Position numbers and translations under genes: made by a program. Source: Peptoniphilus ovalis (lineage in GTDB: Bacteria > Bacillota > Clostridia > Tissierellales > Peptoniphilaceae). Taken from it: 64,000 nucleotides of DNA. The DNA lies in the NCBI RefSeq assembly GCF_018919265.1, contig NZ_JAHLQO010000003.1, forward strand, positions 1 through 64,000. The letters are read 5' to 3'. The notes beneath the pieces are model-generated. The model had not been told where the DNA came from. It made no database searches and saw nothing but the letters and a program-made list of their open reading frames with translations. Position 1 is the first letter of the stretch; every line of letters begins with the position of its first letter. Shown here in pieces: positions 38,662-43,136 of the stretch.

Positions 38662-38678
38662 AGTAAAAGATAGTCAAA
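38662..38678 (+). promoter_or_regulatory. CtsR operator box 1
   Basis: AGTAAAA-GAT-AGTCAAA matches the heptad direct repeat (A/G)GTCAAA-NAN-(A/G)GTCAAA with one mismatch. Confidence 0.8.
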
Positions 38679-38699: not shown

Positions 38700-38716
38700 A
38701 GACAAAGATAGTCAGA
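38700..38716 (+). promoter_or_regulatory. CtsR operator box 2
   Basis: AGACAAA-GAT-AGTCAGA, two mismatches to the heptad repeat; centred 38 bp after box 1 and ending 12 bases before ctsR. Confidence 0.7.
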
Positions 38717-38728
38717 AGGAATGATTAT

Positions 38729-39181
38729 ATGGCAAAATTATCTAACTCCATAGAAGATTTTTTAAATGAATTAATTTTTGAATCTGGTGGAGCAATAGAA
38801 ATACAGAGATCTAAAATTTCAGATTATTTTAATTGTGCTCCTTCACAAATAAATTACGTATTGACCACAAGATTTACACCATTTAAAGGGTATTATGTAG
38901 AATCAAGACGTGGTGGTGGAGGATACATTAGAATAGTTAAAGTTAAATTTGATGATGACAAAGAGACATTAAATACTTTTATTGATTTTATCGGAGACTC
39001 TATTACTAAAGACAAATCCGATGAATTATTAAAAGAACTTTATAGATTAAAAAAAATTACTAAGAGAGAGTCAGAGTTAATTAAGGTATGTTTATCTGAT
39101 AGGGCTCTTTGCGAAAGCGAAAATAAGAATAATTTAAGAGCAAGTTTATTAAAGAATATGCTCCTAGTTATTTTTAGTTAG
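38729..39181 (+). CDS. ctsR: Transcriptional repressor CtsR
   Basis: 150 residues, full length. Represses class III heat-shock genes (clpC and partners). The winged helix-turn-helix is conserved: CAPSQINYVLTTRF (about 31-44) and the wing ESRRGGGGYIRIVKV (about 53-67), whose Arg before the glycines corresponds to Arg62 of B. subtilis CtsR, a site of McsB phosphorylation. Two CtsR boxes overlap the promoter, so the operon is self-regulated. AAGGAATG lies 9-16 bases upstream, a modest ribosome binding site. Confidence 0.96.
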   Translation: MAKLSNSIEDFLNELIFESGGAIEIQRSKISDYFNCAPSQINYVLTTRFTPFKGYYVESRRGGGGYIRIVKVKFDDDKETLNTFIDFIGDSITKDKSDELLKELYRLKKITKRESELIKVCLSDRALCESENKNNLRASLLKNMLLVIFS

Positions 39182-39191
39182 GGGGAAGAAT

Positions 39192-39701
39192 ATGCTTTGC
39201 GACAATTGTAAAGAGAGAGAATCAGTAATCTCATATACTAAAATAAATGACGATAGAGTGGAAGAAGTTCATCTCTGCGAAGTATGTGCTGAAGAAAAAT
39301 TTAAAAGAGAATTTAAGGGGTATCAAGATATTATTCCTCAAATAGAAAATGCATTAAATAATATTTTTAAATTTACTGCAAATAATTCTAAAGATGAAGA
39401 AGATGTAAAATGCGAATTTTGTGGAACAAGTTTTACACAAGTCAAAAATTCAGGAATACTTGGCTGTCCTAAATGTTATGAAACTTTTCAAGCTGATATA
39501 AAGAAATATTTAAATGCATTAAATGTTAATTCTAAATACAAAGGAAAAATTCCGAAAGATGCAGATAGTTATATAGTTTACAATAGAAAACTTGAAGATT
39601 TAAAATCTAGACTTGATCTTGCTATTAATTTAGAAGAATATGAAAAAGCAGCTGAGATAAGAGATGAAATTAAAAGTTTAAAGGGAGATACAATTGCATA
39701 A
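39192..39701 (+). CDS. mcsA: McsA, zinc-finger adaptor/activator of arginine kinase
   Basis: 169 residues. Four CxxC pairs: CDNC (3-6), CEVC (about 29), CEFC (about 74) and CPKC (about 93), as in McsA, followed by a C-terminal UvrB/UvrC motif (EDLKSRLDLAINLEEYEKAAEIRDEIKSL, about 137-165). McsA binds and stimulates McsB and links to ClpC. All zinc ligands are intact. AGGGGGA precedes the ATG; its end overlaps mcsB by eight bases. Confidence 0.94.
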   Translation: MLCDNCKERESVISYTKINDDRVEEVHLCEVCAEEKFKREFKGYQDIIPQIENALNNIFKFTANNSKDEEDVKCEFCGTSFTQVKNSGILGCPKCYETFQADIKKYLNALNVNSKYKGKIPKDADSYIVYNRKLEDLKSRLDLAINLEEYEKAAEIRDEIKSLKGDTIA

Positions 39702-40674
39702 TATTGTTTTAGCAAATACAATGAGATTATATCGGAATGTTGACTCGAAAAACTTTGTAAAAAATATGAATGATGATGAATTGAGAGAAAATCTTGAACA
39801 ATTAGAAGAAATTGTATTAAATCTAGGATATGAAAAATTAGACATTGATAATTTATCATCACTTAAAAAATTAGAATTAATTGAGAAAGGAAAGCTTGAT
39901 AAAAAATTTATTGATAGAAAGCATAAAGGTTATTATATTAAAGATAATAAGCCTGATATTTTAATTAATTCTTATAATCATATTGAACTTTCAATTTCAA
40001 GTGCAGAGAAATCCTTAGATGAATTATTTAATGAAATTTATGAATTAGAAGAAGAACTTGAAAATCATGTACACTTTGCTTTTGATCCAAATTTTGGATA
40101 TTTAACTCCTAATGTATTAACTGCTGGGACAGGACTTAGTCCAATGTCTTTAATTTATCTACCAGCACTTAACTACTTTGGAGTAAAAGAAATGGCAAGT
40201 GGACTTTCAAGACTTGGTTATACTCTTGGAAGTTTTAGAGATAGATCTGGAAGAGCAATTGGAAGTATTTTTACAATAGGATTTGAATCAACTTTTGGCG
40301 AAGAAGAAAAATCTTATATAGAAAAATTAAAGATAATAATAAATGAAATTTCTGATATAGAAATGGAAAATAGAAAAAAACTTTATTTAGATAATATTAT
40401 TACTCTTGAAGATATGGTAAATAGGTCCTATGGGACTCTTGCCAACGCTAGGGTAATATCAGAAGAAGAGATGATTAATTCAATGAGCAATATTAATTTA
40501 GGCGTAGAATTGTCTATCTTAAAACCTAATAGAGATTTTGATTTCTTTAGTGAAGTTCAAAATCTTAGAAATGGTCATTTGCAAATTGATAGAGGCTCAA
40601 TATTAGACTTAAAATCAAGAGATATTTTAAGAGCTAATAAAACAAGAGCCTTAATGAGGGAGGTTTTTAGATGA
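39694..40674 (+). CDS. mcsB: McsB-like protein (ATP:guanido phosphotransferase fold), probably catalytically inactive
   Basis: 326 residues against about 360 for B. subtilis McsB; the first 20 residues are missing. The fold is recognisable (GYLT-GTGL-LPAL, RSYGTLANARVI, LGVELSILKP), but by hand alignment the catalytic set is gone: the SSRIRLARN loop is ANTMRLYRN, NEEDHIRIQ is NSYNHIELS (catalytic Glu and ATP-binding Arg lost), the active cysteine in SCPTNVGTGLRAS is lost (PNVLTAGTGLSPM, including the Arg), and the second catalytic Glu in EGSEAVGN is replaced (RSGRAIGS). TTG start with AAGGGAG six bases upstream. Frame and codon use are normal, so it is selected for some non-kinase role, perhaps scaffold or phospho-arginine binding. 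Confidence 0.85.
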   Translation: MHNIVLANTMRLYRNVDSKNFVKNMNDDELRENLEQLEEIVLNLGYEKLDIDNLSSLKKLELIEKGKLDKKFIDRKHKGYYIKDNKPDILINSYNHIELSISSAEKSLDELFNEIYELEEELENHVHFAFDPNFGYLTPNVLTAGTGLSPMSLIYLPALNYFGVKEMASGLSRLGYTLGSFRDRSGRAIGSIFTIGFESTFGEEEKSYIEKLKIIINEISDIEMENRKKLYLDNIITLEDMVNRSYGTLANARVISEEEMINSMSNINLGVELSILKPNRDFDFFSEVQNLRNGHLQIDRGSILDLKSRDILRANKTRALMREVFR

Positions 40675-43136
40675 GTATGTTTGGTAGATTTAGTGAGAAA
40701 TCACAAAAAGCCATACTTTTTGCCCAACAAGAAGCAAGAGAACAGAAACATTCATACATTGGATCTGAACATATACTGCTTGGGATAATTAAAGAAGGTA
40801 CTGATGCCGGTGCTCATGTACTTTCTAAACTTGGAATAGATTATAAGAAAGCTAAAGATGCAACACTTGATATAGTTACTATGGGACAAGGCCCAGTTCT
40901 TTCAAGTATTGCTTACACACCTAGAACAAAGAGAATCTTTGAACTTGCTTTTGAAATTTCAAGAGAATTAGGAGAAACTACAGTTTCAACTGAACATCTT
41001 CTTTTAGGAATTTTAAGAGAAGGTCAAGGTGTGGCAATTTTAGTCCTAAAAAGATTAGGAATTGACATTATAAATCTAGAAAATGAAATATTAAATAATA
41101 TAGATGAATATGAAGATGACGACGAAAGTCCTGAAATTTCATCAGAAGCATTAGAAAAATATACAATTAACTTAAATAAAAAAGCTGAAGAAAGAAAAAT
41201 TGATCCAGTAATTGGAAGAGATAAAGAGATTAAAAGAGTAATACAAGTTCTTTCAAGAAGAACTAAAAATAATCCAGTTCTTATAGGTGAACCTGGTGTT
41301 GGTAAAACTGCCATTGCTGAAGGTCTTGCAGCAGAAATTGTAGCAGGAAATGTTCCTGAAGTAATGAAAAATAAAATTATTTTAACTCTGGACGTTTCAG
41401 GACTTATTGCAGGGTCTAAATACAGAGGGGACTTTGAAGAAAGACTTAAAAATGTAACTTCTGAAGCTTCAAAGAATAAAAATATTATTCTTTTTATTGA
41501 TGAAATGCATGTAATTATTGGTGCTGGATCTGCTGAAGGTTCACTTGATGCATCAAATATTCTAAAACCTATGCTTACAAAATCAATTCTTCAGGTAATT
41601 GGAGCTACTACAATTAATGAATATAGAAAAAATATTGAAAAAGACAGTGCATTTGAAAGAAGACTTATGCCAATTATGGTTGAAGAACCAAGTGTAGAAG
41701 ATTCAATTAAGATATTAAATGGATTAAAGAGCATTTATGAAAATCATCATAATGTAATAATTTCTGATGAAACAATTGAAGCTGCAGTCAAATATTCTGA
41801 TAGATATTTAAATGACAGATTCTTACCAGATAAGGCAATAGACCTGATTGATGAAGCTAGCTCTAAATTAAAAATAGAATCTTATAAAGTCCCAGAATTT
41901 GAAGAAGAATATAAAGCTAAGCTAGAAGAAATAGAAGACAAAAAGAATGAAGCCGTTAAAAATCAAGACTATGAATTAGCTGCAAATCTTCGTGATGAAC
42001 AGAAAAAAGTTGAAGCTGAATACAAGAAAAAGCTTGAAGAATTTAAAGAAAATGAGCAGAAAAAAGAAGTTACTAAAGAATTAGTTGCCGATATAGTTTC
42101 TGAATGGTCTAAAGTTCCTGTAAAGGATATGACTGAAGAAGAAAGCGAAAAGTTAAAAGATCTTGATGTAAACTTAAAAGAAGATGTAAAAGGACAAGAT
42201 AATGCTGTAGAGACTATTTCTAAGGCGATTAAGAGATCTAGGATTGGACTTAAAGATCCAAATAAACCAATTGGATCCTTTATGTTTGTGGGACCAACTG
42301 GTGTAGGTAAGACATTTCTTGCAAAAAGTCTAGCTAAAAATCTTTTCGGTAAAGAAGAAAATATGATTAGATTCGATATGTCTGAATATATGGAAAAATT
42401 TACCGTATCTAGACTTGTTGGATCACCTCCAGGATATGTAGGTTATGATGAAGGTGGAGAATTAACAGAAGCTGTTAGAACACACCCTTACTCAGTTATT
42501 CTTTTAGACGAAATTGAAAAGGCACATCCTGACATATTTAATATTTTACTTCAAATATTAGATGATGGAAGACTTACAGACTCAAAGGGAAGAACTGTAA
42601 GTTTCAAAGACACCGTTATAATTATGACTTCTAATGTTGGTGCTAACTTACTTGCTAAAAATTCAGTTTTAGGCTTCTCAACATCCAGCGATGATGCCAA
42701 GAAAAATGAATTTGAGCAAATGAAAGATATTATAAATAGTTCACTAAAAGAGAGATTTAGACCAGAGTTTTTAAATAGAATTGATGATGTCGTAATATTT
42801 AAAACTCTTGATAAGACAGAAATTAAATCAATTGTTAAGAATATGCTTGAAACTCTTAAAACTAGACTTCTTGACATGGGCATCAGTGCTAAATTTACAA
42901 ACAAGCTTGTTGATTTTCTTGTTGAAGAAGGTTATGACAAGAAATTTGGAGCAAGGCCACTTTCAAGAACAATTACTAAATTAATTGAAGATAAAATTGC
43001 AGACGAATACCTTGAAGGTAATATTAAAGACGGCGACGAAATTAATGTTGATGTTAAGTACAAGAAGATTCAAATTAATAAATCAAAAAGGAAAAAGTCA
43101 GTAAAAAATGAAAAAGAAGACAGTGTATCAGTGTAG
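40671..43136 (+). CDS. clpC: ClpC ATPase, AAA+ unfoldase of the ClpCP protease
   Basis: 821 residues. N-terminal repeat domain with both phospho-arginine pocket motifs (GSEHILLGI about 31-39 and STEHLLLGI about 104-112, each with the key Glu). First AAA domain: Walker A GEPGVGKT (about 206). Middle region includes a UVR motif (about 425-447). Second AAA domain: GPTGVGKT (about 541), then the ClpP-facing loops and a lysine-rich tail. It feeds substrates to ClpP. Overlaps mcsB by four bases; its 3' end contains the radA start. Confidence 0.97.
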   Translation: MSMFGRFSEKSQKAILFAQQEAREQKHSYIGSEHILLGIIKEGTDAGAHVLSKLGIDYKKAKDATLDIVTMGQGPVLSSIAYTPRTKRIFELAFEISRELGETTVSTEHLLLGILREGQGVAILVLKRLGIDIINLENEILNNIDEYEDDDESPEISSEALEKYTINLNKKAEERKIDPVIGRDKEIKRVIQVLSRRTKNNPVLIGEPGVGKTAIAEGLAAEIVAGNVPEVMKNKIILTLDVSGLIAGSKYRGDFEERLKNVTSEASKNKNIILFIDEMHVIIGAGSAEGSLDASNILKPMLTKSILQVIGATTINEYRKNIEKDSAFERRLMPIMVEEPSVEDSIKILNGLKSIYENHHNVIISDETIEAAVKYSDRYLNDRFLPDKAIDLIDEASSKLKIESYKVPEFEEEYKAKLEEIEDKKNEAVKNQDYELAANLRDEQKKVEAEYKKKLEEFKENEQKKEVTKELVADIVSEWSKVPVKDMTEEESEKLKDLDVNLKEDVKGQDNAVETISKAIKRSRIGLKDPNKPIGSFMFVGPTGVGKTFLAKSLAKNLFGKEENMIRFDMSEYMEKFTVSRLVGSPPGYVGYDEGGELTEAVRTHPYSVILLDEIEKAHPDIFNILLQILDDGRLTDSKGRTVSFKDTVIIMTSNVGANLLAKNSVLGFSTSSDDAKKNEFEQMKDIINSSLKERFRPEFLNRIDDVVIFKTLDKTEIKSIVKNMLETLKTRLLDMGISAKFTNKLVDFLVEEGYDKKFGARPLSRTITKLIEDKIADEYLEGNIKDGDEINVDVKYKKIQINKSKRKKSVKNEKEDSVSV

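Follow-up and report, generated by a model that had tools for sequence, protein, structure and literature searches.

A catalytically dead McsB in the ctsR operon of Peptoniphilus ovalis, probably kept for non-catalytic work with McsA

The window analysed here, a stretch of 64,000 nucleotides from Peptoniphilus ovalis (assembly GCF_018919265.1, contig NZ_JAHLQO010000003.1, positions 1 to 64,000 of the forward strand), carries the gene order ctsR-mcsA-mcsB-clpC intact, and the McsB encoded by it is, as judged from its active-site residues, dead as an arginine kinase. We propose that this protein is probably retained for the non-catalytic work of McsB, as a partner of McsA and a regulator of CtsR and ClpC. 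More broadly, and with a little less assurance, we favour the view that selected pseudo-arginine kinases arose recurrently, several anaerobe lineages having dismantled both the writer (kinase) and the eraser (phosphatase) of phosphoarginine (pArg) and kept McsA-McsB as a phosphorylation-free CtsR/ClpC stress switch. The first-pass annotation of this DNA had described a dead kinase within an otherwise intact arginine-phosphorylation operon; the four genes indeed stand in order, but the genome is probably without arginine phosphorylation.

The active site of the window McsB

The window protein retains the two-domain fold, including the McsB dimerization domain. It matches PF00217 (guanidino-phosphotransferase domain) with 79.8 bits at a cut-off of 22.4, and in the Protein Data Bank it matches, by phmmer, Geobacillus McsB (6fh1, E 1.7e-32) and Bacillus subtilis McsB. 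Residue columns were read from a 104-row alignment and are given in B. subtilis McsB numbering throughout. All seven residues by which we judged kinase function (E121, E212, C167, R29, R125, R176 and R207) are replaced (Table 1), and active-site R34 remains, along with R31, N35, H123, G172, G174 and R337. In B. subtilis McsB, exchange of arginine for lysine at R29, R125, R176 or R207 each abolishes in vitro activity (PMC7235348).

The active-site losses initially read by hand were reproduced both by the phmmer alignment to 6fh1 and B. subtilis McsB and by the 104-row alignment, and the change of R207 to glycine was added to them. The short N terminus, which had been listed together with these losses, is likewise real but is not tied to kinase loss, because active relatives of genus g2 ('MDKDQILLTSRIRLARN') are equally short. 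Furthermore, the protein matches five NCBIfam McsB models but reaches the cut-off of none, missing the equivalog cut-offs with 176.9 versus 385 bits and 153.5 versus 500 bits, although these cut-offs are a weak test, 385 being passed by 5 of 102 McsB of the family and 500 by none of 391 genomes of the class.

An artefact has a negligible probability, whether through misalignment, faulty assembly or an intact second McsB at another site, and no point in its support was found. All 14 genomes of the genus, and likewise all 28 McsB found in the wider Peptoniphilus clade, share the same dead state, which makes a sequencing error very unlikely. In the genome, which comprises 14 contigs and is 99.6% complete, a search for a second PF00217 protein returned the window McsB as the single match.

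Spread and origins of the dead state

The survey of the family Peptoniphilaceae covered 130 genomes from 39 genera, and McsB was matched in 102 genomes from 24 genera. Eight diagnostic residues were scored (R29, R31, the second glutamate of NEEDH, R125, C167, R176, R207 and E212): all eight are held by 20 proteins, seven by one (Cys to Ser), six by one, and none to two by 80, with no protein holding three to five. We refer to the 22 genomes with six to eight residues as active and to the 80 with none to two as dead; they represent 10 and 14 genera, respectively, and no genus is common to both. The dead state is thus clade-wide, accounting for 80 of the 102 family McsB. R29, C167 and R176 are retained by none of these 80, R207 by one, R125 by five, R31 and E212 by eight each, and E121 by nine. 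Other positions are near-universal in the same proteins, namely R34 (79), N35 (79), H123 (80), G172 (80) and G174 (73).

The ClpC tree, rooted on eight genomes that belong to other families within the order, requires four changes between the active and the dead state. Its 105 rows represent 77 of the 102 genomes with McsB, 20 genomes lacking mcsB and the eight outgroups, with g3 thinned to 8 of 31 and with G129 and G116 absent, their ClpC being short or split. In this tree the dead Peptoniphilus clade (g1, g4, g26, g36, g37 and g38) is sister to an active clade (g2, g14, g19, g20, g22 and g39), and most of the remaining dead genera are placed among the active g13, g21, g30 and g31. A single origin of the dead state was rejected on account of these four changes and this sister relationship. 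At least two origins within the family are well supported by the tree, a claim that we limit to this lower bound because dead lineages have long branches that may attract each other.

Twenty-eight family genomes gave no McsB match; 20 of them were read for gene order, seven without a CtsR match were left unread, and G107 was used in the tree only. Nineteen of the 20 CtsR-bearing genomes read have ctsR-mcsA-clpC without mcsB. G090 was not counted as mcsB-less, its contig ending 8 bases past the mcsA stop.

Elsewhere in the order, 108 of 111 McsB matches lie over the cut-off, as assessed by score only, and the remaining three (G165, G174 and G184) are partial. Across the class (391 genomes), low-scoring McsB also occur in other families. 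Seventeen proteins with low or odd scores were selected, of which G165, G259 and G400 are fragments; among the 14 proteins read, 12 hold none to two of the eight residues (seven from family f60, three from f27, and one each from f98 and f99).

Selection on the dead proteins

Dead McsB is, by its substitution pattern, under purifying selection. The median ratio of nonsynonymous to synonymous substitution (dN/dS) is 0.129 in the window's own genus g1 (44 pairs), 0.121 in g3 (37 pairs) and 0.141 in g35 (15 pairs), compared with 0.083 in the active g2 (9 pairs); groups with few pairs gave 0.11 (g36, one pair), 0.05 (g6, two), 0.05 (g5, one) and 0.37 (g4, two). These Nei-Gojobori values include only pairs with a synonymous McsB difference of 0.03-0.62 (44 of 91 in g1, 37 of 465 in g3, 15 of 15 in g35 and 9 of 28 in g2) and are rough because many dS are near 1. 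Furthermore, 79 of the 80 dead copies keep an uninterrupted frame of at least 319 amino acids.

In comparisons between genera, the active-site motifs share 0.73 identity within the active sister clade, and for the dead Peptoniphilus clade the value drops to 0.31 and equals that of its remaining catalytic domain (0.31). The C-terminal portion, which includes the dimerization domain, stands at 0.47 in the active and 0.46 in the dead clade, and the last 30 columns at 0.42 and 0.56. By these identities, constraint in the dead Peptoniphilus clade is relaxed with its centre on the active site. The corresponding values for the dead genera g3, g15 and g18 are 0.39 for the active-site motifs, 0.37 for the rest of the catalytic domain, 0.39 for the dimerization part and 0.51 for the last 30 columns.

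Such figures bear on whether mcsB is simply a decaying gene, a transient relic without present function that is heading for complete loss. The loci without mcsB would be the endpoint of such a course, and the dN/dS of g1 McsB exceeds that of ClpC (0.063) and CtsR (0.071), two g4 pairs stand at 0.28 and 0.46, the proteins of g5 and g6 are highly divergent, and mcsB of G116 is split (as is its clpC). We nonetheless regard decay as unlikely, given that three dead groups with good sampling show purifying selection, that the open frames are long, that the Peptoniphilus clade has kept its dimerization domain under the same constraint, that an McsA docking finger accompanies every dead McsB (see below) and that the dead state spans 14 genera.

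An altered enzyme, with a pocket that accommodates a nucleotide or a guanidino compound or that supports new chemistry with new residues, would agree with the near-universal R34, N35, H123, G172 and G174, and with the uniform new residues of g3, g15 and g18 (asparagine at R29 in 32 of 34, glutamate at R176 in 30 of 34). It is quite unlikely, since in the dead Peptoniphilus clade and in g3, g15 and g18 the active-site motifs are about as conserved as the rest of the catalytic domain, unlike a selected active site, and the four arginines that each abolish activity as lysine are gone from the window protein.

Loss of the arginine phosphatase

The motif CTGNTCR, which we take to be the P-loop of YwlE, was used as a marker of the arginine phosphatase. 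It occurs in 20 of the 130 family genomes, namely in 19 of the 22 active ones and in G090, the genome with the contig that stops shortly behind mcsA; the active G128 carries CAGNTCR, bringing the active total to 20 of 22. As to the other two, G087 reads CIGNTARS and G020 has no match. None of the 80 dead family genomes contains CTGNTCR. Low-molecular-weight phosphatase domains were matched in 34 of them, of which 33 read C(V/T)HNSCR, presumably proteins of the arsenate-reductase type, and one lies at a contig edge. The window genome (G000) has neither CTGNTCR nor a PF01451 match. CKGNTTRS in the dead genome G008 was set aside as a YwlE candidate, there being no PF01451 support in that genome. 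Outside the family, CTGNTCR was found in 0 of 12 dead genomes, five of which have other CxGNTCR matches, as do some controls; among high-scoring controls, whose active sites were unread, it is present in 24 of 25.

A few genomes depart from this pattern. In G087 (L121, L173), McsB carries R176K and E212T next to the YwlE-like CIGNTARS, so that writer and eraser are both altered. The McsB of G447 (L247, family f82) holds three of the eight residues and CTGNTCR is still found in its genome, possibly a snapshot of the transition. G253 (L246, a 0.9-Mb genome with CTGNTCR) and G085 (L119, with the YwlE motif in its genome) have an McsB intact except for the reactive Cys, replaced by Ser; both proteins may be active with altered kinetics.

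As the genome holds no second PF00217 protein and the phosphatase motif is absent from 80 of 80 dead genomes, the arginine-phosphorylation pathway as a whole has probably been lost from the window genome. The same two facts speak against the earlier suggestion that another enzyme writes the mark. More generally, the dead proteins might serve as pArg readers without a local writer, RDxxRA and the ClpC glutamates reading pArg supplied by another enzyme or an outside source. In favour of this, the dead Peptoniphilus clade keeps RDxxRA (R337 in 26 of 28, R341 in 28 of 28), and ClpC E33 and E108 are present in 74 and 65 of the 80 dead genomes. However, these glutamates, found in all 22 active genomes, also persist in 18 and 13 of the 19 mcsB-less genomes, and the CtsR wing arginine (R61 in the window) is universal (22 of 22 active, 80 of 80 dead, 19 of 19 mcsB-less). 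Since both are kept without mcsB, neither is diagnostic of pArg reading; they were rejected as signs of it, and the retained reader that had been postulated loses its basis. Moreover, R337 is rare in active relatives and all but absent from the remaining dead clades, and the serine of the pArg pocket (S285) has been replaced by Glu, for which reasons the pocket was not adopted as the cause of retention. With the single PF00217 protein and the missing YwlE motif also speaking against any pArg economy, a reader without a local writer is highly unlikely. The Glu at S285, lying beside the kept R337 and R341, could mimic a bound phosphate and lock an oligomer.

Coupling to McsA

In the Staphylococcus aureus complex, the C-terminal zinc finger of McsA docks on McsB (PMC12467219). 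Counted by cysteine spacing, this second finger occurs in 22 of 22 active, 80 of 80 dead and 3 of 19 mcsB-less genomes, and the first, N-terminal finger in 22 of 22, 67 of 80 and 19 of 19, respectively. Among the genomes compared, the McsB-docking finger is therefore lost only where McsB is gone, and the other finger only together with a dead McsB; the 16 losses of the docking finger come from few lineages and thus do not amount to as many independent events. In B. subtilis McsB, lysine mutants of R255, R272, R281 and R341 lose stimulation by McsA, and R86 is also a stimulation residue (PMC7235348). The dead Peptoniphilus clade keeps R255 in 25 of 28 proteins and R272, R281 and R341 in 28 of 28 each.

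The mcsB-less genomes (loci L206-L225) present an observation of their own: 16 of the 19 carry an McsA-like gene with the first finger only, for which reason McsA may have a role independent of McsB, perhaps on CtsR.

A phosphorylation-free role for McsB

The conversion of the writer into a scaffold, adaptor or regulator, already envisaged in the first-pass annotation, is the reading that we prefer, as purifying selection, most McsA-coupling arginines and the McsA docking finger all persist in the clade. McsA and the pseudo-McsB would still form a complex, which would bind CtsR, the ClpC N domain or both, and in this way would control both how the operon is derepressed and the handing of CtsR, perhaps also of misfolded clients, to ClpC. 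Of the conceivable triggers, the most plausible would be a thiol switch as in B. subtilis, in which oxidised McsA would release McsB and free McsB would strip CtsR off the DNA without kinase activity, this last step being the least certain. Such kinase-independent removal of CtsR by McsB freed from oxidised McsA is described in an excerpt of PMC5506225, and according to an excerpt of PMC7235348, McsB-C167S stabilises MgsR less than deletion of mcsB does. A thiol switch needs CtsR, an McsA with cysteines and an McsB that binds both, all of which we count as kept here. Nevertheless, the thiol-switch trigger specifically is a tentative suggestion by analogy, which we hold to be possible rather than probable.

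Several observations weigh against a retained non-catalytic McsB. First, McsB function is dispensable, given that 19 relatives have lost mcsB altogether, and in G116 (L132) mcsB is split over two frames, likewise clpC, through sequence error or decay. The near-universal R34, H123 and G172 could allow residual ligand binding, and g5 and g6 are poorly conserved throughout (0.24 in the motifs, 0.11 in the dimerization part, 0.14 in the last 30 columns). Second, retention of the coupling residues differs between dead clades: R272 and R281 are each found in 0 of 34 proteins of g3, g15 and g18, all 34 of which have a gap at R337; R337 is kept in 2 of 18 of g5, g6, g7, g24 and g35 and in only 2 of 22 active relatives, and R86 is present in 0 of 80 dead (0 of 28 in the Peptoniphilus clade) and 5 of 22 active proteins. 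Within the Peptoniphilus clade, the pocket S285 is Glu in 26 of 28. Third, three mcsB-less genomes keep the second McsA finger, and 13 dead genomes lack the first, which bears on the thiol switch in particular. Furthermore, B. subtilis McsB needs kinase activity for its role as a ClpC adaptor, as stated in an excerpt of PMC5506225. Finally, a phylogeny-aware pair test of McsB state against YwlE yielded three to four independent pairs, too few to reach significance, with the same direction in 2.8 of 3 on average and a median p of 0.25; Fisher tests ignore phylogeny and were not relied on.

Comparison with known systems

With McsB of B. subtilis, Geobacillus stearothermophilus and S. aureus the window protein shares its operon position, the phosphotransferase and dimerization fold, RDxxRA and a two-finger McsA partner. 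Unlike active McsB, it is devoid of the catalytic glutamates, the reactive Cys and four kinase-essential arginines, and no YwlE was found in its genome. Arginine and creatine kinases, the phosphagen kinases, are active small-molecule enzymes, whereas the window McsB has lost its catalytic residues. Serine/threonine pseudokinases presumably have another fold and another phospho-residue, the window McsB having what we take to be the phosphagen or guanidino-kinase fold. Bacterial serine/threonine pseudokinases, as far as an excerpt of PMC12599244 goes, likewise retain a kinase fold after the loss of catalysis. A further parallel is the laboratory mutant B. subtilis McsB-C167S, which is also catalytically dead and still contributes to client degradation (excerpt of PMC7235348); in contrast to that mutant, the window type is natural and clade-wide, carries many replacements and occurs in genomes where the phosphatase is missing.

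A search of open-access literature, which left out subscription papers, turned up no description of a naturally occurring pseudo-McsB. In the same open-access literature, McsB was not found together with Peptoniphilus, Anaerococcus or Finegoldia, nor "pseudoenzyme" together with "phosphagen kinase", and among texts pairing McsB with "pseudokinase", the one consulted in excerpt applies the term to another protein, Pkn5. What is surprising is that writer and eraser were cleanly lost together and the scaffold was retained, apparently more than once.

To date, it is work in B. subtilis, for instance on C167S, that addresses whether the adaptor and CtsR-displacing roles of McsB can be separated from its kinase. 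Many species appear to have made this separation themselves, parting chemistry and eraser from the protein and the McsA docking finger, and the natural series of active, dead and absent writers lets the non-catalytic function be isolated. If our proposal holds, McsB would have the scaffold role as an ancestral function that can be separated off, and the genomes concerned would be natural separation-of-function strains. Annotations as "protein arginine kinase" in Peptoniphilus and its relatives are no evidence for phosphoarginine; the residue state predicts which genomes lack it.

Operon neighbours and promoter

The neighbouring genes were correctly named in the first-pass annotation, as borne out by the CtsR domains, the McsA zinc fingers and the ClpC glutamates (Table 1), and CtsR boxes that it had noted correspond to two box-like sites upstream of ctsR. 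Over the whole window, a scan with the CtsR-box consensus, which is also stated in an excerpt of PMC12634643, gave 14 matches against a chance mean of 17.6, that is, no excess; the sole match with one mismatch and one of the two matches with two mismatches both lie in the ctsR promoter.

Table 1. Positions of the operon genes, promoter sites and McsB residues within the window
Feature	Position	Strand	Remarks
CtsR-box-like site	38662-38678	+	upstream of ctsR; 1 mismatch
CtsR-box-like site	38700-38716	+	upstream of ctsR; 2 mismatches
ctsR	38729..39181	+	PF05848, PF17727
mcsA	39192..39701	+	both zinc fingers present
McsA second zinc finger (C-x2-C-x14-C-x2-C)	39411..39476	+	McsB-docking finger by position and spacing
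mcsB orthologue, pseudo-arginine kinase, 326 aa	39694..40674	+	TTG start; overlaps mcsA 3' end (39701)
T9 replacing R29 (kinase-essential, active site)	39718..39720	+	alignment
S93-Y94 (NSYNH) replacing E120-E121 (NEEDH)	39970..39975	+	alignment
E98 replacing R125	39985..39987	+	alignment
N140 replacing reactive C167	40111..40113	+	alignment
S149 replacing R176	40138..40140	+	alignment
G179 replacing R207	40228..40230	+	alignment
R184 replacing catalytic E212	40243..40245	+	alignment
RDILRA, the RDxxRA pArg-receptor motif (R337, D338, R341), retained	40618..40635	+	alignment; site in PMC8370763 (excerpt) and PMC7235348
clpC	40671..43136	+	N-domain glutamates E33 and E108 both kept

MecA, another ClpC adaptor according to an excerpt of PMC5506225, was found over the Pfam cut-off in 0 of the 14 genomes of the genus, with one weak match in G004, so that these genomes have no other recognisable ClpC adaptor of the MecA family. 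Directly upstream of ctsR, the window carries an elongation factor G-like gene (NF009381, 36523-38580), and similar open reading frames lie ahead of ctsR in several further genomes of the family with loci long enough to show it, for instance G101, G064 and G089.
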